From positions 1,134,359 through 1,198,358 of the forward strand of contig JAQGDQ010000012.1 in NCBI GenBank assembly GCA_030141605.1: a stretch of 64,000 bases of DNA, read 5' to 3'. The position numbers and the translations under genes are program-made. The notes under the pieces are model-generated. The model saw only the letters and a list, made by a program, of their open reading frames with translations. It did no database searches and was not told the origin of the DNA. Below, piece after piece: positions 13,518 through 57,467 of this stretch (the stretch's first letter is position 1; the number at the start of each line of letters is the position of its first letter). The DNA comes from Tubiluchus corallicola. Its lineage: Eukaryota; Priapulida; Priapulimorpha; Priapulimorphida; Tubiluchidae.

Positions 13518-13550
<33 letters not shown>

Positions 13551-31400: not shown

Positions 31401-34400
31401 ACCCCATTGATTTAAATAATTATAATTTTGAAATTTGAATTTTGTTTTGCATGTAATTTTGTTAAAATATAGGTTATGCTGATTTAAAGAACTACAAAAT
31501 AAAAGTTGATCAAATTTCTAGTCACCAACTTTATTGCAGTATATTGTATGAAATATTAAAACAGCATGAAGTATTTTGAGTTTGTAGCACAAAATTTTGC
31601 CATTCGAAATAATTCTGGTGCTTGGTTCTTTTTATTTTTTATTGCTTGCATGTATTATTGCAATTACGTTTTCATTTGCTTTTCATGTTGATGTTATTTG
31701 ATGTTGTTGTTATGATTGTGTTTGGCTTGAGATTTGTTTTAGTTATTTTGTTAATCATGCAATCATTATGACTTTTCATTTTGAAGTTTTCTTTATAAAT
31801 AAGTATAGTGGCATTGGCCACCTTAACATGGGATGGCAGCAGCGACGATAGTATGGTCTCTCTGTCATTCCATCTCACAAGTTATACTTGAAAGTTGTTG
31901 TTACTTGTATTTGTGATATCTAAAGAGACAATAAACAATTCTATTCTATTCTAGTCTATGTGGGGTTGAAACATTTTTGACCTGGCAGCTAGCCTTTAAA
32001 TAAGCCACTGAGTTATGGATTCTCATTCTTCTGATGGAGAAAACAATCCCTTTTTTTATTAAGGGAAGGAAATAGAATTCTTTGCTTCTAATATTGTACA
32101 ATAAATGATAAAAAACATAATTCTGAATATAATTTTGTCAACACAAATAAAATTGTCAACACACGCACGCATGCACACACACAAAGTAAATGAGGAATTT
32201 GTAAGCTTTTCTAGTTTGTAAGTTGTTGCAGAGATTCAATGAAAATATATTTTTGCAAAAGTAAAAAGGCCTAAATGTTAATTACCTCATCATCTCTCGG
32301 CTTTTCAAAATATGATTTGGGTTTATCTTTTTTGTCCTTTTCCCGTGTCTCTCGTGGCTGTTTAGCTACGGTGGGAACATATTCACCTATATCAGCATAT
32401 ATATTCTCATCTGCTCCAGGTAATTTTACTTGTTTTCCCACATCCATTTTTCCTAAAAAGTGACACTATGAGCTCAAGTATGAAAAATCACTTGCTTTCC
32501 ATTACAGAGAAAACAAAATCAGTTTCAGATGAGAGCTACAATGAAACTAGTAGGTAGAAAACGACATTGTAACTACATTCACCGTTTAGCATGATCAAAC
32601 CATATTCATTGCAAACAGAATGTTGGTCTTGGTCCAGCGATCCACCTAGAGGGCACATTTCACCAGTACTGGTCATAAGCTTGGTATTGTAGGCGCCAAA
32701 TTTTTCTGGTAATGATTTTGGGCTTGGTTTCAAGCACACTGGAACTAATCTTGATCTTACTCTCAAAATTTGGTCTTGATATTAAATCCAATTTATGCAA
32801 AATGTCATTAATTTTAGTGACTGACAGACTAATCAGCTTGTCATTAATTATTGATCAATTCAGTAAACTACTAAGCCGATGCTGCCGTAAAAATTGCTAA
32901 ATTTATAAAGTAAATAAAACTAAAATATTTAAAACTCACAGCAAAAGTTTTGACATGTTTAGCATATTGTTACGATAAATTTACACATGGCAACAATATT
33001 TCATTCAACTGCTTTCCCAATGAGATACAATTAACATTGTTCTGGATATCAAAAAAATGATAACATTGTGTTACTGAAATTTTATGGGAATACACTTTAC
33101 ACATAAAATAACTTCATAATTTATTCAACTTGTGATTGATCGGTGTCGGTGAACAGCAAAGTTGATCAACTTGTGATCGGCTTGACACCCAAAAATGTAG
33201 ATTAGCACACCAAAAGTTAATTTTAGTTTTGTTAACATAGTAGTTTTTTAATTATTTACATCATTTACCACAAGAAAGTCTTGGCATCATCTTGGTGATA
33301 AAGGTTGAAAATTCTTGAAAGTCTTGAAAATTATTGACTAAGACTCGATAACACTATTTTTGTGTACAACTTTTATCAACTTTAACAAGGTGTAGTAGCC
33401 ATCAGTACAATTAAACATCTATTGTAGCCTATATTACTAATATTTAGCAGCTATTCATTGTGACCCAACATATTTGGAACTACGTAATTCAACCACACCA
33501 GTGATTCAGTAGGTTCCTATTAATTACCAGCTAACCTCATAACCGTACCTTTATCCTTTTTCTTTTTTCTTCGTTCTCCCGACCGCAGATAAGAGAGCAC
33601 CTGTGTCAGCTTTTGAATCACTATGTCATTTGTTGACAAGGTAGTGGTAGACTGAAAATGATTAAAAATGGCTAGCGGAAAGCGTATAACAAAAAGCTAA
33701 TTCTTAAACAATTTATATAAGAATGGAATGCTATAAGTACTAGAATAATGACTGATGCACAGTAATAGAAGATCACAAGATAATCTTAAACACAGCGACT
33801 AATTAACAAATTAAAGTACAAGTAATGTTACTCATTGCTTAATGAAAACAATATTATTTGAACTGTTGAAGCATAGTCACGACAGCCTTTAACAACCTGT
33901 AAGGTGATCGTAGAAAGGTGATCGTTGAACTGCAACAAATAGGTGCATCTCTTAGTTCAATGTGAGTTTCTATGGTGATTCTATTGGACATAACACTACA
34001 GTCATTGCTTCCATAAATTGACAATTATTGATGTTAATACCTCTATACTGGGACAGTCTGCTTTACTTCTAATCAGTGTAGTTGGAATATCAGAATCGGC
34101 AAACTCATCGTCCAAATCTACTATGTACACCATTCTACGTGGAAGAAACAATTCATTTCGCTCATTCTTTTGCCAGCGAAAAGCAGCTCGGTAGATGTTC
34201 TTGCCTAAATAAAATGCAACAGAGCGAAAAATGAAAAGAAAAAGAAAACGGACAATAAATGTATGAAAGGAGTATAAAGCTCTCTGGCAAACTAGCAAGT
34301 TTTTAGACACCCGACACTGATGAGACACTACAGAAATCTTCAGCTGCCACAATGTGAGTTTGGCGTTATGCTTTAACAGTTTAGGAAATTGGTGAAATTC

Positions 34401-36643
34401 ATGTTGAGCCAAAGGCTACATGTTAATACCGAAAATTTTTCTAAGGATGTTTTCCATTAAACAGATATAAGGTAATACTACCTTAAAATGCAAAAATGCT
34501 TAGGTGTAAAAATAATAAGACTGGACCAGACAAGATTGGAAAAACCACTGTGAAAAGCTAAAAGAAAATGCATACACCAAGGACAAGAAGTAAAGACCGA
34601 TAATAATATCACAGATAGGTAAAACAAATTTTGTATTAACCAGTGGTCAATAATAAGTTTATTACACTGTTAGTTCTAATATCATAACACTAAATTACAT
34701 GAAATTACAAGAAATGCTGCGGCAGAAACTTTAGCAGATATTGCCTAACTATTGATGCCATTTATTCATACACGGCCTTGCACATTTGATTATACTGGTG
34801 GCTATATCGTGTGTCTTAACTTATGTGTGTCAAGTTGAGCTGACATTCCAGTCCTGAGTAAGACTGAAGTGTGTTTCACTATGTTAAATGCAGATAATTT
34901 CACTAGGCTAAAAATACCAGTGTAATATTACTAGTGTAAAACCAGTAATAATTTCAGTCACAAATGTCTGAAGCAATGAATTTGTTAAAATTTTAGAAGA
35001 TATTCACCCAGTTTTGTTCTAAATTGTATTTTTTCTTCTTCTTCCTGTTCCTTGTCTCTAAAAAATTATAAACAATATTTTCAATTTAAACATGAACTTA
35101 CAATAAGAGAACATAAGAACAAGTGAAAAGTTAAATACAGACGTACTTGGCACAACAAGTATTTTTGGCTGAGTTACACAGGGATTTAAAAATAAGATAA
35201 TAAACATCCTTACTTATCTTTCTTTTTAGTAACTGTATGTTCCATCATATCCTCTTGTTCTTGCTCTTTCGCTAAAATCTCACTGCGCACCTATAAATGG
35301 AACAGTAAACTTTAAAGCACAATGTGAAAAAAGTATTATCAGACTCCTACCTATTTTGCCGCAAAAGTCAGTTTTTAATAAAAATTATTTATAAGCACTA
35401 TGGAACGATATACAAAAAAAAACGGTTATAGTGATAATGCAATTGTACTTGTAATCAAATACCAAGTGGAAAGTGCAACTCTTGTAACAAAAAACAATCT
35501 GTAAAACTTTCAATGGCGTACCTTTTGCAAAAGGGCATAGTCGAGACCTCTCACTAAATGAGTGTGTTCCATGTCACCACCCAAAAATTTCGATTCCTGA
35601 ATCATTTGTCTCCTCCTTTCAGCTGCATCTACTGTCCTGTAAGAAAAGAGAACTAATTTAGTGAAATGTGTTACTACTGTGTAAAGTAATTTAAGATCTC
35701 TATTTGCTTCACATTAAAATAAATTCAAATGATAACGATGATGATGATTCTAAAGAATAATTCCTCTTTATCTCCCTTGACACGGCTGCAAACAGTGCTG
35801 AGGTACACAAGCAACGCTATTAAATACATAGACTTTACTTTAAATACATTAAAAACAATTAGTTGCAAAAGTGTAAATTGTAAATGATATAATATTTTAT
35901 TTTTTTTTGGTTGGAACTAACAACTTACGAGCTGATATCTGGTGCCACTGCCCTGTAGTTAGCCGTGGTGCTTATAAGTTCCACATCAGCATAATCCTTG
36001 TTGTCACCTTCTCGGCGCTCTCTAGCCTAAGAAGTTAAATAACAAACCTTTACTTTTACACTAAATGTTGCTATTCAGCCTTTTTTAGGTTGAGAAAAGA
36101 AATACAATAAAATGTAGATCTAGCACAACTAACCCTGTCACGATATTTCTTAGCCAACTCAGCCTGTTTTTCTTCTTCCATTTTCTTCAACTTTGCATAG
36201 AAGCTCTTTTTCTTTTTCCTTGCCTCGGCCGCTTCATGTCCATGTTCAACAATTTCTGCTTTGCTTTCCATACGAATTTTTGGTGTCGGCATTGTGGATG
36301 GGGTGTGCACCGATGCCGGTGTCATCAGCAGCTTACGGAAATCAGCATTCGTCATAGGATGACTATTAAACAGTTACATAATTAATGAGCAATTGTAGTA
36401 GAACAGACTTTAACAGAACTAAATTATTACAGAAGTAATAAAGTTAAGAGAAACCACCAATTACGCAAAGCTGATAAAGAGGGAGAGAAACGATTTTTAA
36501 GCCTGACTTAATTTCAACATAATTTAAACATAATTAAAGAAATGTAGTGGTAATCATATCACTTACAGTTCATCTTCTCCCTCGTCATCATCAGAATGGT
36601 TAAGATGTTCCGGTGGCAGTGGATTTGAATATGGACCATCCAT
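25459..36643 (-). CDS. IK: RED protein (IK cytokine), spliceosome component, complete, 15 exons, 554 aa
   Basis: Exons from the 5' end: 36643-36567, 36362-36134, 36026-35929, 35636-35522, 35290-35214, 35057-35008, 34204-34041, 33651-33549, 32452-32286, 30362-30283, 29640-29568, 29185-29082, 28546-28391, 26632-26521, 25518-25459. All GT..AG, total 1,665 nt; human RED is about 557 aa. Landmarks: 'MTNADFRKLLMTP', 'KKKKSFYAKL', 'KYRDR..ARERREGDNKDY', 'TTANYRAVAPD', 'KFLGGDMEHTHLVRGLD', 'KNERNELFLPRRMVYIVDL', 'DIPTTLIRSKADCP' (RED_N), a short Arg/Asp/Glu tract (about 361-392), then 'YAECYPG', 'DDEVDYSKMD', 'KKGPVGRWDFDTQEEY', 'EALPKAAFQFGVKM' and the end 'YKRPKY' (RED_C). RED works in the nucleus with SMU1 in B complex activation of the spliceosome. 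The R-E/D repeat is much shorter than in mammals. Introns carry repeats. The 28546 acceptor was chosen because it alone keeps phase; so was the GTGCGT donor at 26520. Confidence 0.95.
27109..28109. mobile_element. pogo/Tigger-like non-autonomous DNA transposon, 1,001 bp, TA target site
   Basis: The left end CAGTAGGCGTCGCTTAATAG and the reverse complement of the right end CAGAAGGTGCCTCTTAATAG are followed on both sides by ACTCAC, so the inverted ends match at 21 of the first 26 bases. TA lies directly outside each end (27107-27108 and 28110-28111), the target duplication of the Tc1/mariner/pogo superfamily. A second ATTAA-containing block repeats inside both arms. The interior frame (27422-27664) does not look like a DDE transposase, so the copy is probably non-autonomous. 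It sits in the RED intron between exons 13 and 14. Confidence 0.8.
29925..30130 (-). mobile_element. possible retroelement 3' end with AATA-type tail (minus strand)
   Basis: On the minus strand the sequence ends in GTATGTAATAAATAATAAAT, an AATAA-type microsatellite tail after a non-coding stretch, as at LINE or SINE 3' ends. It lies in a RED intron. No coding part is present. Confidence 0.3.
31590..31960 (+). mobile_element. probable LINE 3' end with (TTCTA)n tail in a RED intron
   Basis: A T-rich stretch runs into AAAGAGACAATAAACAATTC followed by TATTCTATTCTAG. A polyadenylation-like AATAAA directly before a short pentamer tail is a common LINE 3' terminus. The stretch before it (TTGGCCACCTTAACATGGGA to TCTCTCTGTCATTCC) looks like the last coding or UTR part of a LINE. 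No RT motif survives here. Confidence 0.4.
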
Positions 36644-38870: not shown

Positions 38871-39363
38871 AAAAATTTAATCACTGAACATTTCCTTGCT
38901 CGCTCCATATCTTTCGTTTGTGCTTTGTGCGAAAAAAAAATTTCATCAAGCTAACGAGACGAAGTTTCGAGCTAAATATCGCAGTTATCCGCTAGATTAG
39001 GAGATAACAAACATAGGTTGTTAGCCGATTACTGAATTTAAATAAAAAACTACTGCCTGTTGGCAAAGTAGGTACAGTAAATTATGTCAGCAACTCAGTG
39101 TGCACAAGTTCGCACACAAAAGCAATTTTGTGGTACACGGCTTTCTAAAGTTTATATTTATGTAACGACAACGTACTATATGGATCGGCTTTGAGTTGTA
39201 AGAAAATTATTTACCATAAAATGAAAAACAAACTACAAATACAAAATCCAGTAAAGAGCAAAACAATCATACTTCGTATACCAGTGTTACTCTTGCAGTC
39301 TTTACTTTAAGATTTCTGCTATTGCTAGTGCAAGTATGTCATCTTACAGGTGTTGTGTACGAT
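38871..39363. other. 5' flank of GRHPR
   Basis: AT-rich, with no gene. It must hold the GRHPR promoter and 5' UTR, unless a 5' non-coding exon lies further left. No core promoter motif is clear. Confidence 0.4.
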
Positions 39364-40461
39364 ATGTTCTGGCAACGATTTTATCATTTTAGCAAGCTTT
39401 CTATTTGCAAAAGTTTGCTAAAAATTAATGCTCACATCTCAGAACGCTTTCCCTGTGGTAAATTTAAAATGAGTAGTTTTAGTAAAGCAAAAGTTTATGT
39501 TACAGGAGTAGTACCACATATTGCTATTGAATTACTTGAAAAAGGTGGTTGTCAGGTTGAGCAGTGGAAGTCAGATAAATTGGTTCCCTTTGATGTGCTT
39601 CTTGAAGGTGTGCGAGGCGTTGACGCTTTATTTTGTAAGCTCACAGAAAAAATTGACAGCAAAGTTTTGGATGTAGCAGGTCCACAATTAAAAGTTATTG
39701 GAACAATGTCGGTTGGATACGAACACTTGGATATCCCAGAAATTAGAAAGAGAAACATCATCATTGGCTATACGCCCGAAGTTCTGACAGATGCAACTGC
39801 AGAACTAACTGTAGCTCTGTTACTGGCAACATCGAGGAGACTGATGGAGGCTGTACAAGAAGTTAAATGTGGAGGATGGGGAAGCTGGCAACCTCTATGG
39901 ATGTGTGGTAAAGGACTGAAGGATTCAACTGTTGGAATTGTTGGTGCTGGCAGAATTGGCCAAGGTGTTTTGGATAGACTGAAACCCTTCAAGGTAAAAC
40001 GATTTCTGTATTGCGATAGAAACAGAAAGCAAGCTGTTGATGAAAAAGGGGGCATACACGTCAATCTGGATATTCTTTTAGCTGAATCAGATTTCGTCGT
40101 TGTTTGCTGTGCTTCTACTACTGAGACTGCAGGATTGTTTAATGCAAACACTTTTAGAAAAATGAAATCTGATGCAATATTGATTAACACTAGTCGTGGT
40201 AATGTTGTGGATATGGATAATCTTGCAGATGCTCTAAAGACTGGTACCATCAGAGCAGCTGGTTTAGATGTAACTGTTCCTGAGCCACTACCTATTGATA
40301 GCCCATTACTTAGTTTAAAGAACTGTGTTGTTTTACCTCACATTGGTAGTGCAGTTTTAGAAACAAGAGCTGAAATGGCTGCATTGACTGCCAGAAACAT
40401 CTTAGCTGGACTTAAAGGCGAACCATTGCCTAGTGAACTTGTTGTACAAGGGTCATTATAA
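39364..40461 (+). CDS. GRHPR: glyoxylate/hydroxypyruvate reductase (D-2-hydroxyacid dehydrogenase), intronless
   Basis: A single open exon that is unmistakably GRHPR, an NAD(P)H-dependent D-2-hydroxyacid dehydrogenase that reduces glyoxylate to glycolate and hydroxypyruvate to D-glycerate. Two starts are possible. ATG 39469 (A at -3) gives 330 aa, the family's usual length (human about 328). ATG 39364 adds 35 residues rich in Lys/Arg/Ser/Phe that resemble a mitochondrial presequence; I keep it because the frame stays open. Numbering from 39469: 'TMSVGYEHLDI' (79-89), 'GYTPEVLTDATAEL' (100-113), 'GGWGSWQPLWMCGKGL' (135-150), the NAD loop 'VGIVGAGRIGQ' (155-165), catalytic Arg243 in 'INTSRGNVVD', Glu272 in 'VPEPLP', His291 in 'LPHIGSA', and the end 'GLKGEPLPSEL'. 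All catalytic residues are present. No introns, although the neighbours have 10-15 exons. An ATTAAA lies at 40496-40501. Confidence 0.95.
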   Translation: MFWQRFYHFSKLSICKSLLKINAHISERFPCGKFKMSSFSKAKVYVTGVVPHIAIELLEKGGCQVEQWKSDKLVPFDVLLEGVRGVDALFCKLTEKIDSKVLDVAGPQLKVIGTMSVGYEHLDIPEIRKRNIIIGYTPEVLTDATAELTVALLLATSRRLMEAVQEVKCGGWGSWQPLWMCGKGLKDSTVGIVGAGRIGQGVLDRLKPFKVKRFLYCDRNRKQAVDEKGGIHVNLDILLAESDFVVVCCASTTETAGLFNANTFRKMKSDAILINTSRGNVVDMDNLADALKTGTIRAAGLDVTVPEPLPIDSPLLSLKNCVVLPHIGSAVLETRAEMAALTARNILAGLKGEPLPSELVVQGSL

Positions 40462-42069: not shown

Positions 42070-42075
42070 TTTATT
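42070..42075 (-). promoter_or_regulatory. candidate polyadenylation signal of PADI (AATAAA)
   Basis: AATAAA on the minus strand, 108 bases after the PADI stop codon. Confidence 0.45.
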
Positions 42076-42182: not shown

Positions 42183-45100
42183 CTATTGCCTAACTTTAAC
42201 ATTCCACCATTTAAATCTGAAAGGTTTTCTCCGCTGATTGGTTCCACAGTGAATGCCACCGTCAAAAATATGAAAAGCATTCCAGTCATCAACAAAATGA
42301 GTGGTGAGGCCGTGTGGTTCAAATTTTTTGCTGACATACGCTTCCAGTACATCTACGCCATTTACAACAGGCCCGAATGGTTTAGGTATGATAAGTTGGT
42401 TGTTCACAACCAGCATGTTTACCATGTCTGTAAAAAAGAAAAAATTGTATTTTCTATTCCATAATATATTTTATAATATTTTATCTTTTATCTACCAGTA
42501 CAATTAGTCGTTTTGTTTTACAGTAAAACAAGGTACATTTTGACTTATTGTGAATATTGTACAGTTTTTGTTAGATAACAGCAAATCGTCAATCACTTTA
42601 TCTAGTTGTCGACATACTGACATACTCGGAAAATATGAAGATGCTCTAAAACTGCCAATAATTGTGTCTTCCACAAAGAGAAAAAGAACTGGTATCTCTA
42701 AAACGTCTTCGTCAGTTATTCCTAGTTCGTTCTTGAGGATTTCCCTGTTCATGTCAATGTAATGCTGTAAAAGACAATAGAATCAAGGTTATTAGCAAAA
42801 AGTGGAATTAAAAATTATTTTACTTTGAATTAGTCCATTTTGGCTTGAGCATATTTTCTTTAAAAATGAAATGTATATTACAAGTGCATTTATATGTATA
42901 TTTAGCTTTTATATTACACCATTTGTTAGACGTACCTGGCATTCCATATTATCAGAGTAAAGCATATCATCGGTAGCTATCCTATGCACGCTTATAGTTG
43001 CCTTGCCCTGGTAGTAGGCATGCTTCTTTCCTGAAAACAGCTTCAATGCGCGAGTGCTTTTGTTTTTTGTGAGTCCATCAATAATGTCGTAGAAAGCCTG
43101 TGGACTGGCCAGCACTACCTTAAAGCCCTAAAAAACTTGATTATCAGCTCAGCAAGACTTCAAAAATTATAATTATCCAGAAATTTCAAAATGTACTTAA
43201 ATAAGTGACAGCATTTATTTAGACTTGGTGCATCCTAAAATTCTGTTCTGTAGTATTACTAGTATGTTAATTCCAGCATGATGCCATGCTTAAGAAACTT
43301 ATGGGCTCGCTAATACTGGTCCAAGTCATCCATCATTTGATTGTCTGTGTGCATGTTTGTTGCAGTGCAATAGTATAAGAGAATAGTATTTTGAGATCAA
43401 GAACATATTAAGATCATTTATCCACCAGCTTGGAACTAGGTTCCATATTAACACATCAGTACAGTAGCAGTGAAACCTAGCTAAATGAAATACTAAGTGA
43501 AGCCTAAAAAAGCATTCTTGTTGCTAACAGATCGTCCTAAATAAGATAATTATGGTAATTATATATTATGGTCACTTGGATGTTAGGAGCTTTGGTGATA
43601 AAAGGGAATTTGTGGTCAGCAAAGAGGTGCATAAAGAGTGATTTCAACTGGGGATTAGTATGCATGGTACATTAGCTATTGTGGAGATTCTAAGAACAAT
43701 TTAGGATACCAGTGTATTGCTTACCTTGCTGTTATTGGATGGAACAAAGGTAACAAATTCATCAACATGGCCGACATACAGCCAGTCCGAGTAGAGCTTC
43801 ACTGGACTTTGCACTTTCTGAGCTTTAAGGAAAAACCAGAGCTTGTCAGAGAGTACTCTTACATCTTTTGCATATCTGCAACACACGTAAAGTGTGCATA
43901 ACTTGCAGCTCTGCTCCAACTATTAAACTTTGCTGTTGCTTGGTTGTGGTATACATATACAAGGAATGACTTGGTTGAAGATGGTTAGAAAAGAAAAGCA
44001 GAGTAAAAATGCTAGTGAGAAAAATTTTGAACTAGACATGATGAGAGAGGAGAAAGTAAGGATTGTCACCAGTGAGTATAACCATAAGACAAAAAATGGA
44101 GAATGTAAAAAACAATGTTACTATATCATAATATCAGTACGTCTGGGCAATAGTTACTATGGGTAGACAACAGAAACAAGAACGCTCAAAAAATCTTTTT
44201 CCTGATACTTTGTACTGTTTACGTGTGCCTCAAAGACTTGAAAATGGGATAAAACAAATTAAATTGCTTTGGAATTGCATACTATGCTCACACCCTGGAT
44301 CTCCATTTCCTATCAAGATTCGTCCAAGTGGATATTCTATTCCATTAACGGTCACTGGTGGACTGACCTCTAAGTTACCAAAGTAGTCTAATTCAGTGAA
44401 GTCGCTATGGTTGTCATCTTGGAAAATATCTACGAATCCAACATTGGGCCCCTATCGTTAAAGTAAAAAATTTGAAAATGTATTCAACCTACTGTACATA
44501 TGTAACTACATGCTAGATGGTATATAAGTGTTCGATCACAATCTATAACCCAACATGTGCACAAAGAATTAAGAAATTAAGGTCATAATAAAACTCTTTT
44601 CGCAATAGATAAAGCTCACAATAGTTCAGAAAAAATAATGCAATAAAGAATCAATGACTTATATTGTTTTATTATTTCCGATTTTAGGTCTACTATATGA
44701 CTTTGACAAAATGTAGTACATGTATATAATTTAGTGTGTACCGAATGTTAACATTTTCATTAATAGGAACAAGTAATAAAATGCTTGGTCCATTTGACTC
44801 TCATTGTCTTTATTAAATATACCTAATACGTGCAACTTACCAATTCTTGCTTAGCACCGTATTGGTTTAATCCTTTTCCAGTGTCTCTGGGTGAGGACAA
44901 AACAACAGCCATCGGATGATGCTGAGGCATTTCAGCATAGCCAAACTCTAATTGGTCCTATTACAAAAAATCATTAAGCGTATACAGTAAGAAATTGTAT
45001 ACGGTAATACAGTAAGTGTGCATCTCGAATCGCTCACATAGTCCGTTTATTCATCATGCCATCAGTTCATTCGTCGACTCATACATTTATGGTACTTTTA

Positions 45101-48100
45101 ACAGAAATCTTATTCTTTCAATCCATATGTGACGAACATACAGCAAAGTGTTTGGTTACCATATGCAATGTGTGTTTCTGTTTGATCACTGCTGGCGTGG
45201 TTATGCTGCTCATAGCCAACTGGTCATTTAAAGCCTTTCATGTATTTTTTAATACAGTTTGGCACCTTGCAAACTGGAATCCAGCCCTCAGTAGCATGGC
45301 CTACTTAATGTGGATGGTTGTGGTGGATCAAAACCTTGCTCATTGTCAAAAGTAAGCTTCTGTGGCTCATTATCAAAATGTGATGATAGATGTTGAACTG
45401 GCATGGTAAATGAAATTGCCAAGAGCAAATATTGACCATTGGGGTTATGAATCCATCCAATCACTGACCAGTCATGGAGTTGCTTAAATTTGGCTAAGGA
45501 TGCACCGTGACAACGACTCAGCTTATCATCTTTTGGAAAGACAAATGAAGGGTAGAAACTTCACTATGAAAATTGTACAAAGAGAGCACCAAACTTTTTC
45601 TATCCTGCGGGGCTGCACTATAAGAATCAGAAGACATCACCTAATGTGTGGCTGTCCAAGTAAGAAACAACATGCAATACATTGAGAACTTGGTGGTGAA
45701 ACGATGACGAAGGAGACTGATGCGACAACACTGACTTTAGTAACGGCATAGGAATGATATTAGACAATGTGGCTCATAGATTGTAACCATCTTTGAGAAG
45801 AAAACATCTACTATCATTAGGAAAGGAAAACCACAAGCAAGCAGTCATACATTCACACACGATTTACTTACTCGTACAATCATCATTCAGTCATTTTTGG
45901 CCTTTATCCATTGCTCATTTGTCTATTCATTTCTTATCATAAGTCTCACTGGTGCAGCATTTATTTGTTAGCTGGTTGATTTGCTGGTTGGTTAACTGGT
46001 AATTTGGTTGATGGTTTGTTTGCTCAGTTTTCTGTATTTGTTTGTTAAACTATTTGTTGTGTTCACTTTCGCTCATTCCTTAGTCACATAGTGGTTTGCA
46101 AATAAGTTATCATCTTCAAATTATCAATCACAATTTCTTTATTGTGATGTTCTGCAAATAGTAACAGGGACAGAGACAAAAAGTTTTACTTGTATCCATC
46201 TGTCTCCATTGCATATTTTCTTCGGACACATACGGATTTCAACATTAGGCATGTCTTGCATTATGCCCTGAAGTTCAGCTAGGAAAGTTTTAGTTTGCCG
46301 GTTTACAACTCCATAGATGGTATCAGTTTGTAGAGTATTTGGTGTCATAATCCAAGGCGTTACTGTAAACAGGACTGAATCTTTGAAAATAAGAGATGCG
46401 CCCTGAAAGAGTAAAATTAACATTTACATTGAAAATTTTTTAATGATAATGACATATATAAGCTATCAATAAGCATTTATAATTGCATTTCTATCAAACA
46501 ATATATATGTTATATATTATGGAGACTTTTCAGGCAACAACTCATGGTCATTGATGAAGGGAGATCGGGATGGTTAACAATGTGGATCAAGCAGGGATGT
46601 GTAAATGTCAGGTTTCCTCTTTCTCTTGACAATTGACTATGTAAAGAGGATAGTGGAAGACAGCTGGAGGACGGACATAAGATTGAGGTTTTATACATTA
46701 CTTGAAGATTTGGATTTTCCAGATGATTTGGTGCTGGTCTCATTGGAGTTTGAATATAATACAGATGAAGACCACAAGGCTCATTAGGAAGCAGAGCAAG
46801 TAGGATTAGACTAAGCTGCAGGAAATGTAAAATGATGAGGTTGAACGCAGGGAGTAACATGAGGGTGAATGTGGGAGGTGAAGAGGTGGCAAGAGGATAT
46901 AGAAGAGTTTGTATACCTTGGAGCATAATGTCAAATACAGGTGAATGAACACAGGATGTGGTAAGCAAGGAATACCGGCATGAGGACGAAAGGTTGGTGC
47001 TATTGATTAGAAGCGAAACGTGGAAGACAATGAGGATGGAGGAGATAAGAAATGGGGAAGGGCAGTGAAAGCAGGAAAGAGGTATGTGGGATGGAGGAGT
47101 TGAAATGATACCAGAGCTGTGGCAAAGAACAGGAGGGTATCTCGACTGTATGTGTTCTGACATGGTAGATGCTAATTAAGTGAGTACAAGGCAATAACAA
47201 GGTTTGACAGTATCCTTACATAACTGTCAATACATTTGACGTTGATGTCTTAGTTGATTATATAATAGCCAGTATTGGGAACTTGCAAAAATGATTTCAT
47301 TCATTTAGTATTCGATTAATCTGTTCTAGATTTGTAGTTGGGCTTGCATTATTTTTCTCTGCAAATGCATTGCTGAGCAACATCTCATTTTTTTGTTCTG
47401 CGTTTTAGTAATCAGAACATTGAAATTTAGGCTGCATACTGTATAAACGCCTAGATAAAGATGAAAATGTCCGTCGAAGTCTCCATCAGGAAATTTCATG
47501 GCCTCAGCATAGAGCTTTACAACTCTTTTTCCTCTGTATGGAATATTCACACTATTTGAGCTAGATGGATTCAAGATGTTTTCTAGACTTTCAATTTGCC
47601 CTGCATACATAAAAAATATTTATATAGTGACAATCAAGAAGTATAATTTATTGTTTTTTTCTAAACTATGCTAAAAAGAATAAACACACCAAATAAATAA
47701 TTTTTCTCTTGATTATGGCGAGTTTTCAAAGTTTCACTCACCAAAAGAGTTAACATTAGCTTTGAATATCCTCACGAGATTCCGTTTCCTGTTTTCTGTG
47801 AATAAGAACATACTGTAGTCTGGCGGTAAAGTTGGTGGACCATCTGAAATTTGACACACTTGAATTTAAAGACACAACGACAGCAGTTTAGAAGTTTGAC
47901 CGGATGAATTGCATGCATGCATTGTCACCATTGATCCTGAATTTTCTTTTAAAAAATAAATAAATTTACGCCCGGTAAGAAGTAAAAAAAATTACAAATG
48001 AAATAATTTAAAAACTGGTCCTTGCTAGGCTCGTTTAACCTACATCTAAAGTTTTAAAGAATCTCACCCTTTAACTATTCCAATCGCTAGTTTTTGTTTT

Positions 48101-48398
48101 AGCCAACAGATGGCGCACAAAACAATTTATAAAACCAGAGAATTCATTTTTATACGTGCTTTAGCCCTAATGCTGAATTCACTGATAATTTTGCAAAACG
48201 TTTTTCTCTCTTTCTCGCTCTCTTCCTGTATCTCTTCCACATACCAGTTCTAATGATAACTGGACTCAAGTCCTTCAAATCGCGGCTTCCCGAAACCCAT
48301 TCGTCGTCCGAGTCACGCAACTTTGCATGATTTCGATCTCGGTCAACATTCGGAATGATGATTGCTCCATAGCCAGATGGACCCCATTGCCAAGAGTT
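42183..48398 (-). CDS. PADI: peptidylarginine deiminase, 10 exons, middle and catalytic domains (N-terminus not found)
   Basis: Exons in order: 48398-48245, 47843-47742, 47600-47440, 46402-46190, 44957-44841, 44451-44294, 43875-43725, 43127-42936, 42764-42626, 42427-42183 (stop 42185-42183). All GT..AG, all phases join; 543 residues. PADI turns protein arginine into citrulline, Ca2+-dependently, in cytosol and nucleus. Seen: '[11 protein letters not shown]' and 'NVDRDRN' (middle domain Ca sites), '[15 protein letters not shown]', 'GDRWIQ' then '[11 protein letters not shown]' (catalytic Asp211), '[20 protein letters not shown]', '[15 protein letters not shown]' (catalytic His338 and Asp340), '[14 protein letters not shown]', '[11 protein letters not shown]', and '[18 protein letters not shown]' (nucleophile Cys523). 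All four catalytic residues and the first calcium site (Gln, Glu, F-x-x-L-E) are kept; the second calcium site differs (see findings). Vertebrate PADs have about 150 more N-terminal residues; those exons should lie right of 48398 but I could not recognise them. Confidence 0.94.
44990..46100. other. PADI intron holding unrecognised open frames
   Basis: This intron (44958-46189) contains plus-strand frames at 45056-45355 and 45500-45685 and a stretch with repeated TTCATTC/GTTGGTT-like words near 45880-46060. The text looks like old transposon sequence, but no motif allows a family call. Confidence 0.35.
46550..47250 (+). mobile_element. decayed LINE reverse-transcriptase fragment in a PADI intron (antisense to PADI)
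   Basis: The plus-strand frame reads '[20 protein letters not shown]', then '[21 protein letters not shown]'. This is the RT block 'fLF.L.iDwvm' plus '..leDLDFADDlaLlS', with FADD mutated to FPDD. It is followed by broken text resembling 'N.GGEEVE.V..FVYLGS..S..G' and a Gly/Arg-rich tail. It is a third LINE family in this window. The 217-codon minus-strand frame across it is its antisense shadow. Confidence 0.7.
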
Positions 48399-48416
48399 CT
48401 GAAGTTTAAGATATAA

Positions 48417-48438
48417 TATATATATATATATATATATA
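48417..48438. repeat. (TA)n microsatellite at PADI exon edge
   Basis: A TA run about 20 bases upstream (on the minus strand) of the first recognised PADI exon; it forms part of the intron before that exon. Confidence 0.85.
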
Positions 48439-50327
48439 ACATGAAGATACTGTGAGCGAGAGTTACTGTTTTTTCCATTTAATCGTTTAATTTTTCATAA
48501 GTTTCGTCTTCATGTATATTCCATAAACTTTACATACATGTATTTACAAGTTCTTTCAGCAAAAAAATAAAACCGGTGTTTGTAAACAACTAACAAGTTA
48601 CATTACTAGAGAAATCCTAAACGTCACAATTGCTGTTTTATGTGCAAATTTAATAATTTTTTTACAGCGATGTATGTAACTGGATAGTCAGGGTGTGTCC
48701 TTAGCGACTGAAGTCAAGCAACGGTTGGTCTGTTTAGTAAATGGATGACTACCTACCACAGAAGTCACTTCTGGAAGGTATCTTTTGTCATACTGCTAAC
48801 TGTCCCAAGCTACTTTCTCATCCAGTGAGGATGTATGTAAATATGCATTCGAATGTTGTTAAAACTCTGCCCGTTCAGGGTTAAAATCTCAGACTGATAG
48901 GCCAGAACTATAAGCCATCAACAGTTAATAATTATGCCTAGGCCCTGCCGTCGTTGGCCCAATGGTACAAAAAATATTTACAATGGAACCAAACGTGCGA
49001 GCGCTACTGACGCAGGCGTAACCAAATGACATTCGTTTTCACAACACCATAAGCTACTTTGAATTTACTGATAAAGAATTGAATTTAAGCAGACAGTTTT
49101 TTTACTTCAGCAGCGTGTACATGGAGCTGCTAAATTTTCTAGTAAGGTAGCTTTTGCGGTAATAGTAGGGTATCTTGTGTTTACAATATCGAGGTCTTCA
49201 TTAGAGTGCCTTATTACTGTCCACGCTAAGCAGTTTTTTATCTTTATCTTCTTTTTGTCGCGTGCTTGTTATCGATTTCGTTACTGTACATATGTGAACG
49301 CAGATTAGACTATACGAAGAAGCAGACCATTGAAATTTTTTGGAGAATTTGCCATACTCGGTACTTTTCACCATATTAATTTAGCGCTATCCGACACGCC
49401 GTTATGTATTGTTTACACAAAGTTTTAACAAATTGCCATCGCTCTTTTCGTATTGACTGATTCATTAAGTAAACAAACGCTCTTGTCTGGCTGCTTCCAA
49501 GCTTTCTGGAATCCATTACGTTGCATGCACATGCAATCATTTCACTTCCTCAATTGGACGAAGACACGTATGCAACCCATGGGCGGAGAGAGACACCAAG
49601 AATAAATGAGTTGTCTAACAAACCTGACGTGTTTGACGTCTTCGTCGCACGTCAGAGGGAGCAATGTTCTTTCGGTCAACAGACTCCAACATGCAATCTT
49701 AATTGGCTTCCGACACGCCAAGGAATGAGTTAAAATAATTGCCAAAGCAGTGGCGATGAAATTCAAACGAAGCTGTTTTTTCTCAACAGCTGATTAATTT
49801 TTTTTTGGATTTTGTGGCAGTATGGTTGATTAAAGCCGCCATAGAGTTGACGGATGGCTTGCTAACTTTAGTAAAATGTTTGATTTTTCGAGTTGTTAAG
49901 GATGGCCTTACGATCTCACTATAAACTTCAACTTCAAGAAGTGGCAAAAAGAAACATAATAACACAACTCTTAGTAAAAAATTGGCAAAAAAGAAAGTTA
50001 ATTAATTGATAAAACCTGTAAAATTTTGTGGTTATTACTGTTTAGATAACAGATTTAATGAAGAAATACCCAAGAGTAGTATTTCGCGCGCTACTTCTGT
50101 ATTGAGTATTATTTTTTTCTGACCTGCAAAAGCTGGAAAGTTAAGAGAGAGAGAGAGAGTATATTTTTTGCCATTAACCAAAAAAATGTCAAAATATTAT
50201 TAAACAGGAATTAAGGAATATTTTAAAGTATGTCCCAAAGAATTTTTACGCAAAGTCGTATTACTTAGCATTACGTTTATCTGTTCAAAAGAGATAATTT
50301 ATGTAACAGAGAAAGAAAATTCTTACA
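48439..50327. other. region upstream of the first recognised PADI exon, nothing identified
   Basis: I searched the minus strand for the missing PADI N-terminal segment (in vertebrates it includes '..FLTA.EISLD.D.D.DG..') and did not find it. Short frames at 49521-49766 on both strands look like chance. Confidence 0.45.
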
Positions 50328-50572
50328 ACGCTTTCAGACTAGCGAGTTTTCTGTTGTGAGTTTTCTCTCTGAGAGTAAACTGGCAAGTGTTAACTGTTTT
50401 GCGAGTTACTATCGGCAAGTTATTGCAAACTCTCCGACAGTGTTGCGAGTTCATGCTCTCTTTTCTAGTCTGAACATGCTTGCGAGTTACTTGGCGCGCT
50501 ACAGCGAGTTTTCCTAGCGAGCTACGGCGAGTTTACATGGCGAGAAAACTAGCTAGTCGCTAGAGTGAACGC
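50328..50572. mobile_element. MITE, about 245 bp, rich in GCGAGTT words
   Basis: The left end ACGCTTTCAGACTAGCGAG followed by TTTTCT is the imperfect reverse complement of the right end AGAAAACTAGCTAGTCGC followed by TAGAGTGAACGCG. Inside, the word (T/G)GCGAGTT occurs repeatedly (for example near 50398, 50443, 50480, 50506 and 50529), which gives a GC-richer patch. Inverted ends of the type GCGTTCA..ACTAGCGA are common in small non-autonomous DNA transposons. Confidence 0.65.
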
Positions 50573-51711
50573 GCCGTAGCTGTTTAAAATATCGCCCAAA
50601 TTGCTAAAACGTTACTGGTCCACTTTCCCATGGGTGACAAACAACGTCACTGACTCATCGACAACCGTATTATTAATGTTATTTATAAAATAAAGTAATT
50701 TTTGTGTTTTTGCTTAATTAGCAATGTGGCTCTAAGAATGCTCTGATGATTTTTTCGAACTTTACCCAATGCTATCAGAACTTGCTTAAATCTTTTACTC
50801 AAAGACTGACCGTTAAAATGGGTACCTTTAACTGTTTAAGTTGCAGTTTGTATTATTTCAGCTTACAGTTTTTTACTCCTCACTTGCCCGTTTTTATCAC
50901 AACTTATAAATTGGCTTCTGTTTCAGTTTGATTGAATCCTTTTGCTTCTACAATTTTGAATTTCATCTGCAGTATACCTGCAATTTCAACTTCCAGTAAA
51001 CATAGTCAGTTTCGTCACGATTTTATGTATCTACTTCATTTTTGGAACAAAACAATTACTTATTAGTTTAAAACACTTTAGACAATGGTATTTTAGATTT
51101 TGAGCTAGACCCGGCAACCGACTATATGTAGCTAAACTCACTGAAGCATTGACGCTGTGACATTGAGTATGTGGAAACTGTTATTGACCTATTGCAACAC
51201 TTTATGAAGTCAACTCAGCACAATTGTATAATTATTACTAAACTCTGAGTCATAAACTAATTCAAATTCCGCAGCCGTGCTGGAGGAAACAAATAAATTA
51301 GTAGGTAAATTAAAAGAGGTTACAAAATGTAGAGGTTGTGCTTTTCCCAAAGAGGTGAATAAACAAGAATTATAATAAAGGTCATTAACTAAAAAACATT
51401 AGCAAACAATAAGCTTTGACTTTCATCCTTCAACAATTATTATAATTTATATATAATGCTGGAGAGATTTTAAATTTCTAGTTTGAGTGTAACTAGTTAA
51501 CTCTGCGACTGAGTTGTCACCTATCAGCTAAGTTGCTGCGCTACAAAGAAAACTGAGGAAAATCTCTGAATATATATATATACAAAAGAATATTAAAGGC
51601 AGAGCCGGTTTCGCACCGATAAAGCCATTGAGCAACGTCTTAAAAAAACACATACGCTGTCAGCACAAATATAACTCTTTCCCCCCCGCTTTCCAATTTA
51701 TCCCTCCCTAG

Positions 51712-51776
51712 TGCAATCATCAACGATTATAAAGATATTTTGCTGAGATTCCGCGAAGAGGAGTTGAGAAGAAACG
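51712..51776 (+). CDS. orphan internal exon candidate (amphipathic helix)
   Basis: A strong pyrimidine tract (CTCTTTCCCCCCCGCTTTCC, then TTATCCCTCCCTAG) precedes 65 bases that read AIINDYKDILLRFREEELRRN, followed by a GTATGT donor. The peptide would be a charged amphipathic helix. No partner exon was found within a few kilobases, so it may be an exon of a gene with long introns, a pseudo-exon, or chance. Phase: 1 base, 21 codons, 1 base. Confidence 0.25.
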
Positions 51777-51985
51777 GTATGTTCACATCCGTGACTGAGC
51801 GTATACAAAACCACACATGTGTGTGTTGTTCCCTATTAATATCCTTCAGCGGTAGGACGGATCTAGAGAGAAGTCACGCCAGCCCACGCAGTGAAAGCTA
51901 CGCAGAGGTTGCACAAGTGTACCTAACGCTTCTTTTAATACCAAACATTAGTCGATGATAAATGCTTTAGGGTTCGTATATAGGG

Positions 51986-52007
51986 TATATATATATATAT
52001 ATATATA
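51986..52007. repeat. (TA)n microsatellite
   Basis: A TA run of about 11 units. Confidence 0.85.
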
Positions 52008-53584
52008 ACACAGAGTGTATAATAATCTTGTCATAACCGTTCTGTATGTATTTTTACAGCCAGTCTCATCCCTAAACTTTCATAGTATTTTAAATAATTT
52101 CACGACATTATTTCTTACCATTCCGACTTTTTTCTATTTTACATTATTATTATATATCATACATGCAAAACAAACTTCCTCCTATTTGCAAAAATTGTGT
52201 TCTGGTGAGGACCGAAAAATTGGTGTCCAGCGAAATTAAAACATCAGATGTGAAATTAGGAAATCAGAAGCGTAAACGTTATAATAAATTAATTCGCTAA
52301 ATTTTGTTAAAACTAAAATGCTAAATATCGAAAGTTACAAAATATTACGGAAACGTGCGTAGTTACGTATTATGAGCTCGCGCTTGCAAAATATTGCAGT
52401 ATGATTTTGAGCTACACTTTTGTTGATTTCTGATTTACAACGTCGATTAGGTCTACATCACACTGAAAACTCTATTTTAGTTAGTCATACATTTGCCAGA
52501 ACTTTGGGGTCTTTTGCACAGCTATAGTGACCCCTCTCTTCAGGTTAAGATCACATCAATTTGAAACATATTTCTGGATCTGCACGACTCGTGTGCTGCC
52601 ATGTTTACCCAGTCCTGCATCATTAATGTTGACGCTTGTAGCAACGAATAACATGTGTTGTTAGTATGCGGTATTATGAATCGAATAAACTCTCTCAACC
52701 ACAGCATATGATTATGACTCTGTAGGAACGCGGCAGCAGTTAGGAAATTTATAGAGATAAAGAGCCAAATGTCCCCATATAATACACATTTGAAAAAATA
52801 TCTAGTAAAATTTAACTTTAATACATATTTATGCACTTAATTTCTGCTAGAATAGCAATGAAGCCACATTTTACTGCTTAACAACATTTTTTGGTACAGT
52901 GAAATGGGCCACGATAGAAAATGTAAGTAGAAAGTGCTCAGATGGCCAATACGTAGATCTAATTTGTTCTCCAAATTTTAGGACATTTTGATTGTAAGCA
53001 TGTCCAAGTGCTTACAGTCCAAGTGGATTTATACATAAAATAATGGTTTCTCCAGTTCATAATTAAATATGCTTCAAGGCTGGCTTCAATTAACTTCACA
53101 GCAAAAGTGGTCAACTGGCCGGGTCTGAAAATTCCAGTTTATGTTGCAGGATCGCGTGCTTTGCTACAGAATAAAAAGTGGAAAAAGGGAAAGAGAAGGA
53201 AGTGATTATTTAGAATGTAGTCAAAATGATATAAAAAATGCCACGGAAAAAGGGCACAATTGGAAAAGTAGGAATTAATAGCACGTGTAAAACTAAAATG
53301 CACTCAGTAGAAGTAATCTCCGCCAACGCCAAATAATCCTATACACGCTAGTCTGATTTTTTTTATAGGAAGAAACATAAAATAAAGCTGAACAGACAAA
53401 CCTACAAAAAATATACATATTCAAATAATTAATAATTATATAGATTAGCTAGCGAAATAACCCCAAGATACTTTGTTATTTGTCAGATTGTAATGACTTG
53501 GGTCAAAAATGTCGGTACAGTGACCATTGTCCAGCTAATATGGTGTGATGTTTGAAATGACTTCTACGAGCGCCCCAGTTTCCT

Positions 53585-56112
53585 CCAAAAACTCCCGGCA
53601 ATTTTCGCCAGAGGGCCAAGTCCACGATGGCCGTCAACTTCTTCTGGAAAAATTATCTTTTGACTTCGTGTATCAGATGTCTGGTGCACGTAGAATCACG
53701 TAAAAATGGTTTCTTTGACTAAGTAGATCTCGAAAATTTGGATTCTGTCAACTTTACTTTGTGACATCATTTTGACCCCGAAATCCAAGATGGCCACCAT
53801 GCCACGGGTAAATGTAAGTGTTGAATGAAAAAAGAAGTCGATAGGTTTTGCATTACCACTTCTCTTCAGTATGTAAATAAGAAAAATAAATAATATTATT
53901 AAGAACATATAGTATTAGTGAACTATAGCTTTTAACTCCTGCATTACCAACTATGCATGGTCTTTTGTAGCTGCAAATGTTACCAAAATGAAGCCAATTA
54001 AAGCATATCAACAAATTCCACTTACTCAGAAATTGAAAGTACGTATTTTAAATTACGCATATGAAATCACGGCACAATTAGATATAGCAAACCTTGATTT
54101 TATGATACGCTACACATTTTTATGGCAAGCAACTAATACAATAGCATGATACTATGAGACGTGATCAGTCTGAATTAGAGCATTCAGCCCACTACATTCT
54201 GAATCAACAGATTCTAATGAATCACACCCACTCTCTGTCAATCAGCAAGCTGACAACGCATCCGTTCTCTCTTCCTCTTCATTCTCATCTCCCCTGAATG
54301 GTGAGGAGTGGCACGTCAGTGAAGGGTGACGCGTAAGACATGCCAAGTGGTTGGCACAGATGCAGTGTTGGCGAAGGCTATCTGCAACTAGAAATAGTTT
54401 GTTCTTCATTCTCTTCTACTTTGTAGCATGGCCTTCAGCCATGTTGCTTCTCTTATTGTCACCATTATCTTGTAGATCACATGCCGCATGAGTTGCAGGA
54501 GCTCGTCTACCTTCTCACAACCAGGACACACCGAAACAGTTGTATTTGTGCCACAAGTCCCTGCCACTAAGATTTTACATCAACTTCTTGTCTTTGCCTG
54601 AGTTGGCATCACAGCCTCTCATACAGCGTAACTGCACAATACAGTGTGTCATGTCATCAGTCACCTGCCTTGTTTTGATATAAAGGTACTGGACAGATCC
54701 CCTATGACCAAGCATGCCGTGGAACTTCAGCAAGGAAAGGCAAGTGGAAAAAACTACTGACATACAGCTATATGAATCAACTTTCCAAAACTTTTTGTGT
54801 AGATAATGTGTACTCTCTTGTCACCCACTTACCAATTCAACAACTAATAAGGAACTATAGCTGCGACCAGTCTGAAGCTGACGGCATTCTCTTTTCCATC
54901 TATGCAGCTTTGTGCGAGTTAGACTACTTGCTGGTTACAATGTCTACGCAACGGTAGTGGTTAGCTCACTCCAGCGGCCCGTCATACTCTGTCCTATGTC
55001 TTGCACTGTAACTTGTGGAGCTACAATCGATGAAAGCCTGTGATGCCAACTCGGGCTTTTATGGCAAAAATAGGAAGTTGATGTAATCAAGTGGCAAAGA
55101 GGACTGTGGCAAAGTAACGCTCACCGTCCGAGATAGCTTTGACGTTAAAGAAGAGGTGGTAGAGAAGTTCATTCAGGTCCCGCTAAATGTAATGTATGGT
55201 GACAACAACTCAGGCTATGTAAGGCTATAGGCTCATGCTACAAAATGGGAAACCCTGTACCGACACTGCCTCAGCGCCAACTATTTGGCGTACAAGCCGT
55301 ACACAATGTGCAAAACTTTCCAGAACTATTCATTTCCAGTGGGACATGGCTGGAAACTGGAAATGGGTCACGATCGAAAAAGGGTTATAATTGATTCATC
55401 GATTCAAGCAGCATTCGGAGTAATCACATCTCACAACAACATACTAGCTGCAATGCAATAAGAATTTGTAGCATAGCATGATATGTTCTTTGATGACTGT
55501 TATAATTATGTGGTCTCATTTGTCTAAAACATATCATTTTCTGGATAAAATGGAATTTGTTGACATGTTTTAACTGGCTTTATGTTGATAACAATTATAG
55601 CTGATTAAAAGCTCATTTTTTGAACTGTAATTGGTTCCATTGTCATTATATTCATCCATTATGATGCCACTTGACATTTTTGTGCAAGAACTGAACTTAT
55701 AAACATAAATGTCCGATAGCGTGACAAGATATATGTTTCGGTGGCAAAATTTTTACCAAGCAGAATTATGGAACGACCGAAGAAACAAAATTTTGACAAT
55801 ACTAAAGTAATGCATATTCGATAATCACGGAAGTAGCTGTAGTTTACTAAGGTTATTTGTCATTCTTTCTTACACACTAAAAAAGAAGTAAAACCGAACA
55901 TACTTTTTTTTCATTTGAAACTTACATTTGTGCTTGATGGATGCGGCCGTTTCGGATTGCGAGGTCAAAATGATGTGTGACAATGTAAAACTGATCCATT
56001 TACCCCCAAAAGACTGCCTCCAGCCGATTTTATGTCCACTAGTTCGAGACAATATTTCAAATGGGCGGCCATCTTGGATTTGGTCCACTAGCGAAAACTG
56101 TCAGGACTTGTG
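53585..56112. mobile_element. DNA transposon, about 2.5 kb, with ~240-bp inverted ends and internally inverted coding remnants
   Basis: The left arm (53585-~53870) and the reverse complement of the right arm (~55875-56112) share, in the same order, CAATTTTCGCCAG/CAGTTTTCGCTAG, CCAAGTCCACGATGGCC/CCAAATCCAAGATGGCC, CATCATTTTGACC, and AAATGTAAGT followed by AATGAAAAAA. The interior codes for pieces of a repeat-associated protein. On the plus strand (54772-55460): 'TFCVDNVYSLVTHLPIQQL', 'YSCDQSEADGILFSIYAALC', 'CDANSGFYGKNRKLM', 'CLSANYLAYKPYTMC' and 'FPVGHGWKLEMG'. On the minus strand (54770-54180): 'CDANSGKDKKLM', then related but broken text. The protein type ('ALTGCDANSGF..', 'H..RANYLA..', 'P.GHGW') is frequent in invertebrate mobile DNA. 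The copy is dead (stops, frameshifts). Confidence 0.75.
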
Positions 56113-56245
56113 GGAGTGACCCGTGGACCAAATATTTTATAAAAGGTTCATAGATGTCAAATCAATCAGCAAAACATGTTAAAACTAAACATTTTGACCC
56201 TACTAAATGTATGAAGTTGACGAGGTTTTTCGTCCTATATTTTTG

Positions 56246-56412
56246 ATCAGACGGTATAGTTTAGTGGTAGCGCGGTCGCTTTCCATCTGGCAGGTCGTGA
56301 GTTTAATCCTTCGGCCGGGTCATGCCAAAGACTCCAAAAATTGTACCTGCTGTTGTCCTGCCTGGCACGTGGTATTTAGGGCAAAAGTAAGGTAATAATA
56401 ATCTCTGTTATG
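56246..56412 (+). mobile_element. tRNA-derived SINE
   Basis: The head GACGGTATAGTTTAGTGGTA contains an A box (TAGTTTAGTGG), and GTGAGTTTAATCC is a degenerate B box. It is followed by a tRNA-unrelated body (GGCCGGGTCATGCCAAAGAC to GCCTGGCACGTGG) and a short (TAA)n tail (GGTAATAATAAT). The T-arm no longer pairs, so this is not a working tRNA gene. The body resembles, from memory, a SINE body seen in cnidarian and other marine invertebrate genomes. Confidence 0.7.
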
Positions 56413-57289: not shown

Positions 57290-57400
57290 ATGGCTGTAAG
57301 AAAGGTGCACAGTGTGCTTGAAAATAGAGATGCGGTTGGAAACGTGCGTCTACCCCCAGATAATTATAAACATGCCGTGATCGACGCCAGCAAAATTTAA
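57290..57400 (+). CDS. small open frame, possible exon or transposon remnant (36 aa)
   Basis: ATG to TAA, encoding a coding-like peptide that contains LENRDAVGNVRLPPDNYKHA and ends VIDASKI. Next to it, 57468-57542 follows a CTTTTTAG-like acceptor and reads PNQRAMWSLPTMQTEEFLP to a TGA. A splice from GTGCGT (after codon 18) to 57468 would join them in phase into 42 residues, but it skips half of the coding-like first part. Both pieces may be remnants of one longer transposon or host protein. No family recognised. Confidence 0.25.
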   Translation: MAVRKVHSVLENRDAVGNVRLPPDNYKHAVIDASKI

Positions 57401-57467
57401 CTTGCTGATTGCTAAACTGCTCCTCTTCATACTTACAAAAATAACTTCATTCCATCCACGTTTTTAG

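Follow-up and report, generated by a model that had tools for sequence, protein, structure and literature searches.

The calcium sites of human protein-arginine deiminases (PADs) are the best described point of comparison for the gene treated here. In human PAD2 and PAD4 the sites fill in the order Ca1, then Ca3-5, with Ca2 last (PMC11402830). In PAD4 three side chains, those of E351, D369 and N373, make up the Ca2 site, and in PAD2 it is Ca2 that swings the arginine gate outward (PMC11402830). PAD4 D388 coordinates Ca4 (PMC3559651). The same position in PAD2, D389, has been called a critical calcium-switch residue that is conserved solely in a clade of animals and late cyanobacteria, and the PAD_N domain and sites Ca2 and Ca4 are described as confined to that clade as well (PMC8826395). 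In that paper the animal/cyanobacterial type of PADI is clade Ai. We examined a 64-kb stretch of contig JAQGDQ010000012.1, called the window at its full length of 64,000 nucleotides. It holds a real multi-exon protein-coding PADI gene, most of which lies within the window. Its product keeps the active site and Ca1, and departs at two side-chain ligands of Ca2 and at the switch residue. Positions are given in window numbering, and PAD residues are numbered as in PAD4 unless stated.

The original prediction was that ten exons join in phase into the PADI middle and catalytic domains, and this is what a check of splice sites and frame gives. The ten exons run on the minus strand from 48398 to 42183 and yield 543 open codons and a stop. 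AG precedes all ten, GT follows exons 1-9, there are zero internal stops, and the window sequence contains no N. The introns within this model are 141 to 1232 bases long. The features are as follows.

48245..48398, minus strand: exon 1, middle domain, with Ca3-5 ligands N153, D155, D157, D165, D168, D176 and D179; opens at an acceptor in phase 0
47742..47843, minus strand: exon 2, middle domain, from splice sites and frame
47440..47600, minus strand: exon 3, middle domain, E252 equivalent kept, from splice sites and alignment
46190..46402, minus strand: exon 4, domain linker to Q349, gate Arg and Trp347 kept
44841..44957, minus strand: exon 5, 39 codons, phase 0-0, with catalytic D350, E351Q, Ca1 ligand E353, D369S, S370, R372 and D373
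44294..44451, minus strand: exon 6, Asn at switch position 388, Ca1 ligands F407, L410 and E411
43725..43875, minus strand: exon 7, catalytic His471 and Asp473
42936..43127, minus strand: exon 8, from splice sites and frame
42626..42764, minus strand: exon 9, from splice sites and frame
42183..42427, minus strand: exon 10, catalytic Cys645 (codon 42248-42246, by eye), stop TAG
42070..42075, minus strand: AATAAA, a possible polyadenylation signal about 110 bases past the stop, by eye only

The family assignment rests on scores far beyond chance. The spliced product matches the Pfam PAD catalytic domain (PF03068) at 1.7e-127 over profile positions 2-395 of 395, and PAD_M (PF08527) at 1.4e-26 over positions 24-149 of 159, the start of that domain being absent from the model. 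A phmmer search of the PDB returned 27 sequences. All are protein-arginine deiminases of type 1, 2, 3, 4 or 6, and the best is PAD2 (5.9e-122). Identity is 42-48% to human PADs (42-44% to PAD2), 38-44% to cyanobacterial ones and 25-29% to actinobacterial ones. The level of identity to the human proteins suggests a non-vertebrate gene. The linker PWIMTPN is of the type seen in the human and most cyanobacterial rows and differs from that of the actinobacterial rows, and the actinobacterial insert at 155-180, which in the Ca3-5 region marks two-domain actinobacterial/fungal PADs, is absent from the window protein.

These comparisons rest on an alignment in which the human rows are PAD2 (almost complete), PAD4 (middle and catalytic domains) and PAD1 and PAD3 (C-terminal parts only). 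The window protein was aligned further with 16 cyanobacterial proteins, a protein of a Kapaibacterium assembly, a planctomycete fragment and three proteins from actinobacteria. The bacterial set is 20 loci from one scan, 18 of them cyanobacterial. Two of the cyanobacterial PAD loci, L014 and L017, are left out of the counts because their frames are broken. Another two (L011 and L018) are partial, leaving 14 full-length cyanobacterial rows.

The catalytic residues D350, H471, D473 and C645 are all present in the alignment, so that the Asp, His, Asp and Cys were rightly described as intact. The same is true of calcium site 1, where Q349, E353, F407, L410 and E411 are kept; half of the cyanobacterial rows (8/16) have Arg at 349. 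Arg372 is also kept. The N-x-D-x-D of the middle domain was likewise read correctly (N153, D155, D157), and it extends to a full set: with the ligand list taken from PMC3559651 (N153, D155, D157, D165, D168, D176, D179 and E252), the window protein keeps 8/8. PAD2 has 7/8, and all eight are kept in just three of the 14 full-length cyanobacterial rows. Position 170 was not counted because there is a length difference there, with Trp in the window alignment and Lys in PAD2. In exon 10, nine residues before the catalytic Cys, the column of PAD4 Tyr636 has Phe in the window and Tyr in 16/16 cyanobacterial and 4/4 human rows.

The Ca2 site looks different. At the ligands E351, D369 and N373 the window protein aligns with Gln, Ser and Asp. 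E351 is unchanged in 16/16 cyanobacterial rows and in PAD2, PAD3 and PAD4 (3/3, the PAD1 piece stopping short of it), and D369 is unchanged in 16/16 cyanobacterial rows and in PAD1-4 (4/4). On this alignment E351Q and D369S are true departures, and the claim of an altered second calcium site was right in substance, with two of the three side-chain ligands replaced. A shift in the residue correspondences at site 2 had been named as one point on which that claim could fall. The residues lie where they had been placed, and the alignment leaves no ambiguity in these stretches (WIQDQLEFGY / [18 protein letters not shown] / VVLDSPRD; LGPN / LGPD). There is also a third replacement, which had been missed: PAD4 D388 (PAD2 D389), the Ca4 ligand and switch residue, is Asn in the window. 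Its column has Asp in 15/16 cyanobacterial rows (L008 has Gln), in 4/4 human rows and in two of the three actinobacterial rows. Since L008 has Gln and 2/3 actinobacterial rows have Asp, D388 is not a strict clade marker in the present rows. The three codons were counted by eye:

44952..44954, minus strand: codon CAA, Gln for Ca2 ligand Glu351, from the alignment
44895..44897, minus strand: codon TCC, Ser for Ca2 ligand Asp369, from the alignment
44443..44445, minus strand: codon AAT, Asn for the Ca4 ligand and switch residue Asp388 (PAD2 Asp389)

If ancestral codons are assumed, a single base change from the usual codon can account for each of E351Q and D388N, and D369S needs two.

The other changes that the original prediction drew attention to are less unusual than it supposed. 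Asp does replace Asn373, but human PAD2 and 14/16 cyanobacterial rows also have Asp there, so it is no unusual change. Arg372 is kept as claimed, but the Thr given for Arg374 is one alignment choice only. Position 374 falls in a loop that is two residues longer in the window; it is Lys in the present alignment, and Gly in PAD2, PAD3 and L010. The suggestion of changed substrate contacts is therefore weak: Arg372 is unchanged, and the human PADs themselves differ at position 374.

Exon 5 carries several of these residues. It is 117 bases long in phase 0-0, so skipping it would preserve the frame and delete the catalytic Asp350 and several calcium ligands. A tblastn search of introns 4 and 5 with the window protein, PAD2 and the loci L001 and L021 as queries gave no alternative exon 5 with canonical ligands. 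A weak match elsewhere in the window, at 18820-18879 on the plus strand (E 0.59 and 1.8), resembled the FGNLEVSPP stretch; it lies in a short piece flanked by stops and was dismissed as chance. Within another intron of the gene, an antisense stretch at 46500-47000 resembles by eye a reverse-transcriptase fragment; Pfam gave no match to it.

We argue, by analogy with PAD4 mutants, that the two neutralised Ca2 acids together with D388N may give a weaker and more graded calcium response. The gene would then encode a catalytically competent, calcium-dependent protein-arginine deiminase with a weakened Ca2 site and a higher calcium need, a reading to which we give about an even chance. With its acids lost, Ca2 would bind calcium weakly or not at all, and activation would run mainly through Ca1 and Ca3-5. 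PAD4 Asp388, the switch residue through which the middle and catalytic domains are linked, is Asn in the window. The calcium need would be raised to near or above millimolar, and the response would be more graded than that of human PAD2 or PAD4. The PAD4 triple mutant E351A/D369A/N373A has a kcat of 1.45 versus 14.5 per second (10%) and a kcat/Km of 1.12 versus 25.4 (about 4%). Its calcium K0.5 goes from 0.28 to 1.23 mM and its Hill coefficient from 1.7 to 1.0, so cooperativity is lost (PMC5445078). In PAD4 D388A the calcium K0.5 goes from 0.6 to 4.35 mM and kcat is 8.2 versus 13.3 per second (PMC3559651). The step from these residues to a calcium response in the window protein is one that we infer.

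Several points weigh against this. Cooperativity stays in D388A, with a Hill coefficient of 2.2 versus about 2.7, and an earlier report cited in the same paper has this mutant at about 80% activity (PMC3559651). PAD4 is reported to lose nearly all activity when a single Ca1 or Ca2 ligand becomes Ala (PMC3559651), and N373A to be catalytically dead (PMC11402830). Activity is in doubt here because these dead single mutants disagree with the 10% kcat of the triple mutant. The published mutants are also Ala in the human protein, unlike the Gln, Ser and Asn of the window. These three are less drastic changes than Ala and can still supply oxygen ligands. With Asp373 and Ser370 also in place, Ca2 binding may persist. 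The changes may also belong to a general divergence of the gene. We defined invariant columns over 16 reference rows (the 14 full-length cyanobacterial rows, PAD2 and PAD4) with a leave-one-out control. The window departs at 20 of 119 such columns, and the left-out controls depart at 15 of 134 (PAD4), 10 of 129 (L019) and 22 of 119 (L016). The segment 365-392 plus 351 shows no excess of departures (2/8 columns, p 0.40; 3/9 at a 90% cut, p 0.28). General divergence is thus possible, given the 20 departures and a switch segment that is not enriched. What is distinctive is that these changes fall on a single metal site and on its relay, with the other ligands kept, a grouping that we noticed after the fact.

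The 5' end of the gene must be considered before the alternatives are weighed. The model lacks a start codon: its first exon begins directly at an acceptor, and the stretch from the preceding stop up to that exon offers no in-frame ATG. The model therefore lacks 5' exons. According to PMC8826395, PAD_N is present in every metazoan PADI. We did not find PAD_N in the 15.6 kb upstream (48399 to 64000) with Pfam in the three minus-strand frames. Our own profile of the N-termini of PAD2 and 14 cyanobacterial PADs found no PAD_N or Ca6 segment among 2892 open reading frames of the window. Scans of the upstream sequence that combine splice sites with codon usage gave nothing credible, the best candidate scoring 4.5 against 6.2 to 24.9 for the ten real exons. 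That scan is weak because its codon table was trained on the same exons and part of the neighbouring dehydrogenase, and because its donor cut-off misses one of the nine real donors.

Controls show what these searches can see. On exon-sized pieces of the PAD2 N-terminus Pfam finds PAD_N at 2.2e-14 and 2.8e-08 and the start of PAD_M at 2.4e-05. For cyanobacteria it finds a Ca6 piece at 3.6e-04 and scores a PAD_N at 0.01 only. Our profile built without PAD2 finds the Ca6 segment of PAD2 at 2.1e-11 and misses the first two thirds of the PAD2 N-terminus. The frame scan run on the PAD gene itself finds PAD or PAD_M in all three frames and misses the exon 2 stretch. On the neighbouring genes it picks up P450 and RED pieces, but in one stretch a single P450 piece was found and other P450 exons there were missed. 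From these results the searches would probably have revealed an N-terminus resembling that of PAD2, but not a diverged or distant one. A gap of more than 15 kb would be unusual for a gene whose introns within the model run 141 to 1232 bases.

PADI genes had been described as best known from vertebrates, patchy elsewhere and proposed to derive from bacteria by transfer, and this agrees with PMC8826395. The invertebrates with PADI named there are Priapulus, Saccoglossus and Branchiostoma, and the metazoan PADIs are all from deuterostomes except that of Priapulus. Since only this one falls outside the deuterostomes, the phylum of the host matters for dating the transfer. Branchiostoma floridae and Priapulus are among six animals analysed there for calcium sites. 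As sites 2 and 4 are called features of the clade, both animals are implied to keep them.

A tree of 19 rows without an outgroup (omitting the actinobacteria, L011, L016, L018 and L020) separates the window and human PADs from the cyanobacteria with support of 100/99. It is unrooted and the human rows are its sole other animal rows. When three actinobacterial rows are added, giving 25 rows with L020 omitted, the root separates the window from all other rows (92/89). With one actinobacterial outgroup row the support for the root is weak (70/79). When the tree is built from the catalytic domain only, the outgroup rows do not hold together, and one lands among the human PADs. The approximately unbiased (AU) test does not reject the window with the human PADs (p 0.149, 0.136 and 0.244). 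The tree that the original prediction proposed therefore gives the window with the human PADs in its unrooted form, but a root that varies with the outgroup. We tried rooting in three ways and do not trust it because the outgroups are too distant. The conservative reading is an animal PAD on a long branch. As to the bacteria, the PAD at 2524-4698 of L016, from a Kapaibacterium (Bacteroidota) assembly, joins the cyanobacterial ones (98/98) on a long branch and has Ala at the switch position.

One can imagine a scenario where this gene is instead a basal lineage from a separate or earlier transfer, older than the three-domain PADs, that never had the Ca2/Ca4 switch or PAD_N. The replaced Ca2 acids and switch Asp, the failure to find PAD_N and the root on the window branch with three actinobacterial rows (92/89) all fit it, since PMC8826395 confines these features to the animal and late cyanobacterial clade. 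However, it is very doubtful. The 19-row tree groups the window with the human PADs, the root with a single outgroup is weak, and the AU test leaves that grouping standing. The window has the PWIMTPN linker and is without the actinobacterial insert. Two of the three actinobacterial rows have Asp at 388, so the types do not sort cleanly by that residue. The window and the outgroup are also both long branches. If it were true, animals would have acquired citrullination repeatedly, or at an earlier date than has been suggested, and the switch of the human enzymes would have been added afterwards. Another scenario is a decaying gene or an assembly artefact, with the 5' end gone and the catalytic part a remnant. 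The missing PAD_N and Ca6 segment would be explained, as would the lack of any exon-like upstream piece ending in phase 0. Still, ten exons have neither a stop nor a frameshift, the active-site residues are all kept and the window has no N, and we find decay or artefact extremely improbable.

The remaining alternatives accept the gene and dispute its function. Ca2 could be calcium-free by design, with Gln351, Ser369 and Asn388 hydrogen-bonding the 370-388 loop into its active shape, so that the enzyme would need fewer calcium ions or be partly constitutive. The three replacements are all polar and neutral, the loop is two residues longer, and the loop of human PADI6 is ordered without calcium (PMC11402830). 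PADI6 is inactive on standard substrates in that same paper, however, and we argue for continued calcium use here because the Ca1 and Ca3-5 ligands are kept. We consider a calcium-free Ca2 unlikely. The product could instead be a non-catalytic PAD, a structural or regulatory protein like PADI6. The altered Ca2 and switch residues, the Phe for Tyr636 near the catalytic Cys, and the reports that PAD4 with one Ca2 ligand mutated has little or no activity (PMC3559651, PMC11402830) would all fit. But D350, H471, D473, C645, Arg372 and all the Ca1 ligands are kept, and PADI6 differs in having no Ca1 glutamates and no Cys at the catalytic position, while it keeps E351/D369 (PMC11402830). We think loss of catalysis quite unlikely. 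A calcium-dependent deiminase with a weakened Ca2 is the reading that we carry forward.

The rest of the window has other genes. Exons of a mitochondrial-clan cytochrome P450 lie at 8900-16640 on the plus strand, closest to the CYP24A1/CYP11 types; the best solved structure is CYP24A1 (1.2e-58, pieces joined by eye). The mitochondrial P450 clan is not known outside animals, and its presence nearby suggests an animal host. Exons of a RED/IK-type splicing factor lie at 26000-36000 on the minus strand (RED_C 7.5e-35, RED_N pieces). A D-2-hydroxyacid dehydrogenase in a single open reading frame (2-Hacid_dh_C 6.8e-55) lies at 39220-40461 on the plus strand, convergent with the PAD gene. There is an (ATAC)n microsatellite of about 118 copies at 58682-59155. 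Rfam and tRNA scans of the window gave no matches. Two peptide patterns run against viral contigs matched 17 stretches, zero of which encode a relative.

PMC9174705 treats it as an open question how PADs are activated in cells, where calcium is below the in vitro need. A natural PAD with the catalytic site and middle-domain ligands intact and the final site neutralised would offer a direct way to learn which site governs the calcium threshold and cooperativity. The gene is also a further animal PADI, and probably not a vertebrate one. Of two recent papers, PMC12153100 has annelids lacking padi4 'similarly to all other invertebrates', and PMC10998917 says PAD4 homologues are absent outside vertebrates.

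Among the known systems compared, the gene shares with PADI2 (PDB 4n20 and others) the middle and catalytic domains, the catalytic residues, the Ca1 site, the Arg gate (PAD2 Arg347) and Asp at PAD4 373. Unlike the window protein, PADI2 has acids where the window has Gln, Ser and Asn (PAD4 E351, D369, D388). The switch loop of the window protein is two residues longer, and the N-terminal domain of PADI2 was not found for the window gene. With PADI4 (PDB 1wd8, 1wda) it shares the two domains, catalytic residues, Ca1, the Arg gate and all eight checked middle-domain ligands, and it differs at E351Q, D369S and D388N and in having Asp for Asn373. The cyanobacterial PADs are alike in linker type and at 38-44% identity, but they have E351 and D369 in every row (16/16), and 11 of the 14 full-length rows differ at one or more of the eight middle-domain ligand positions conserved in the window protein. 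The actinobacterial PADs (L021-L023) have the catalytic residues and also lack the Ca2 acids, but with Phe, Leu or Ile at 351, Arg at 369 and an insert in the Ca3-5 region. The centipede venom PADs are also invertebrate PAD genes. They are attributed to two transfers, from Gammaproteobacteria and Bacteroidetes, and are treated beside the Porphyromonas PAD and called unrelated to human PADs (PMC7864903). Human PADI6 also has altered calcium sites, but in the reverse pattern: it is without the Ca1 glutamates and the catalytic Cys in its usual place and keeps E351/D369, and the window protein is the opposite (PMC11402830). Against all of these the gene is a useful natural test of calcium control rather than a new system.

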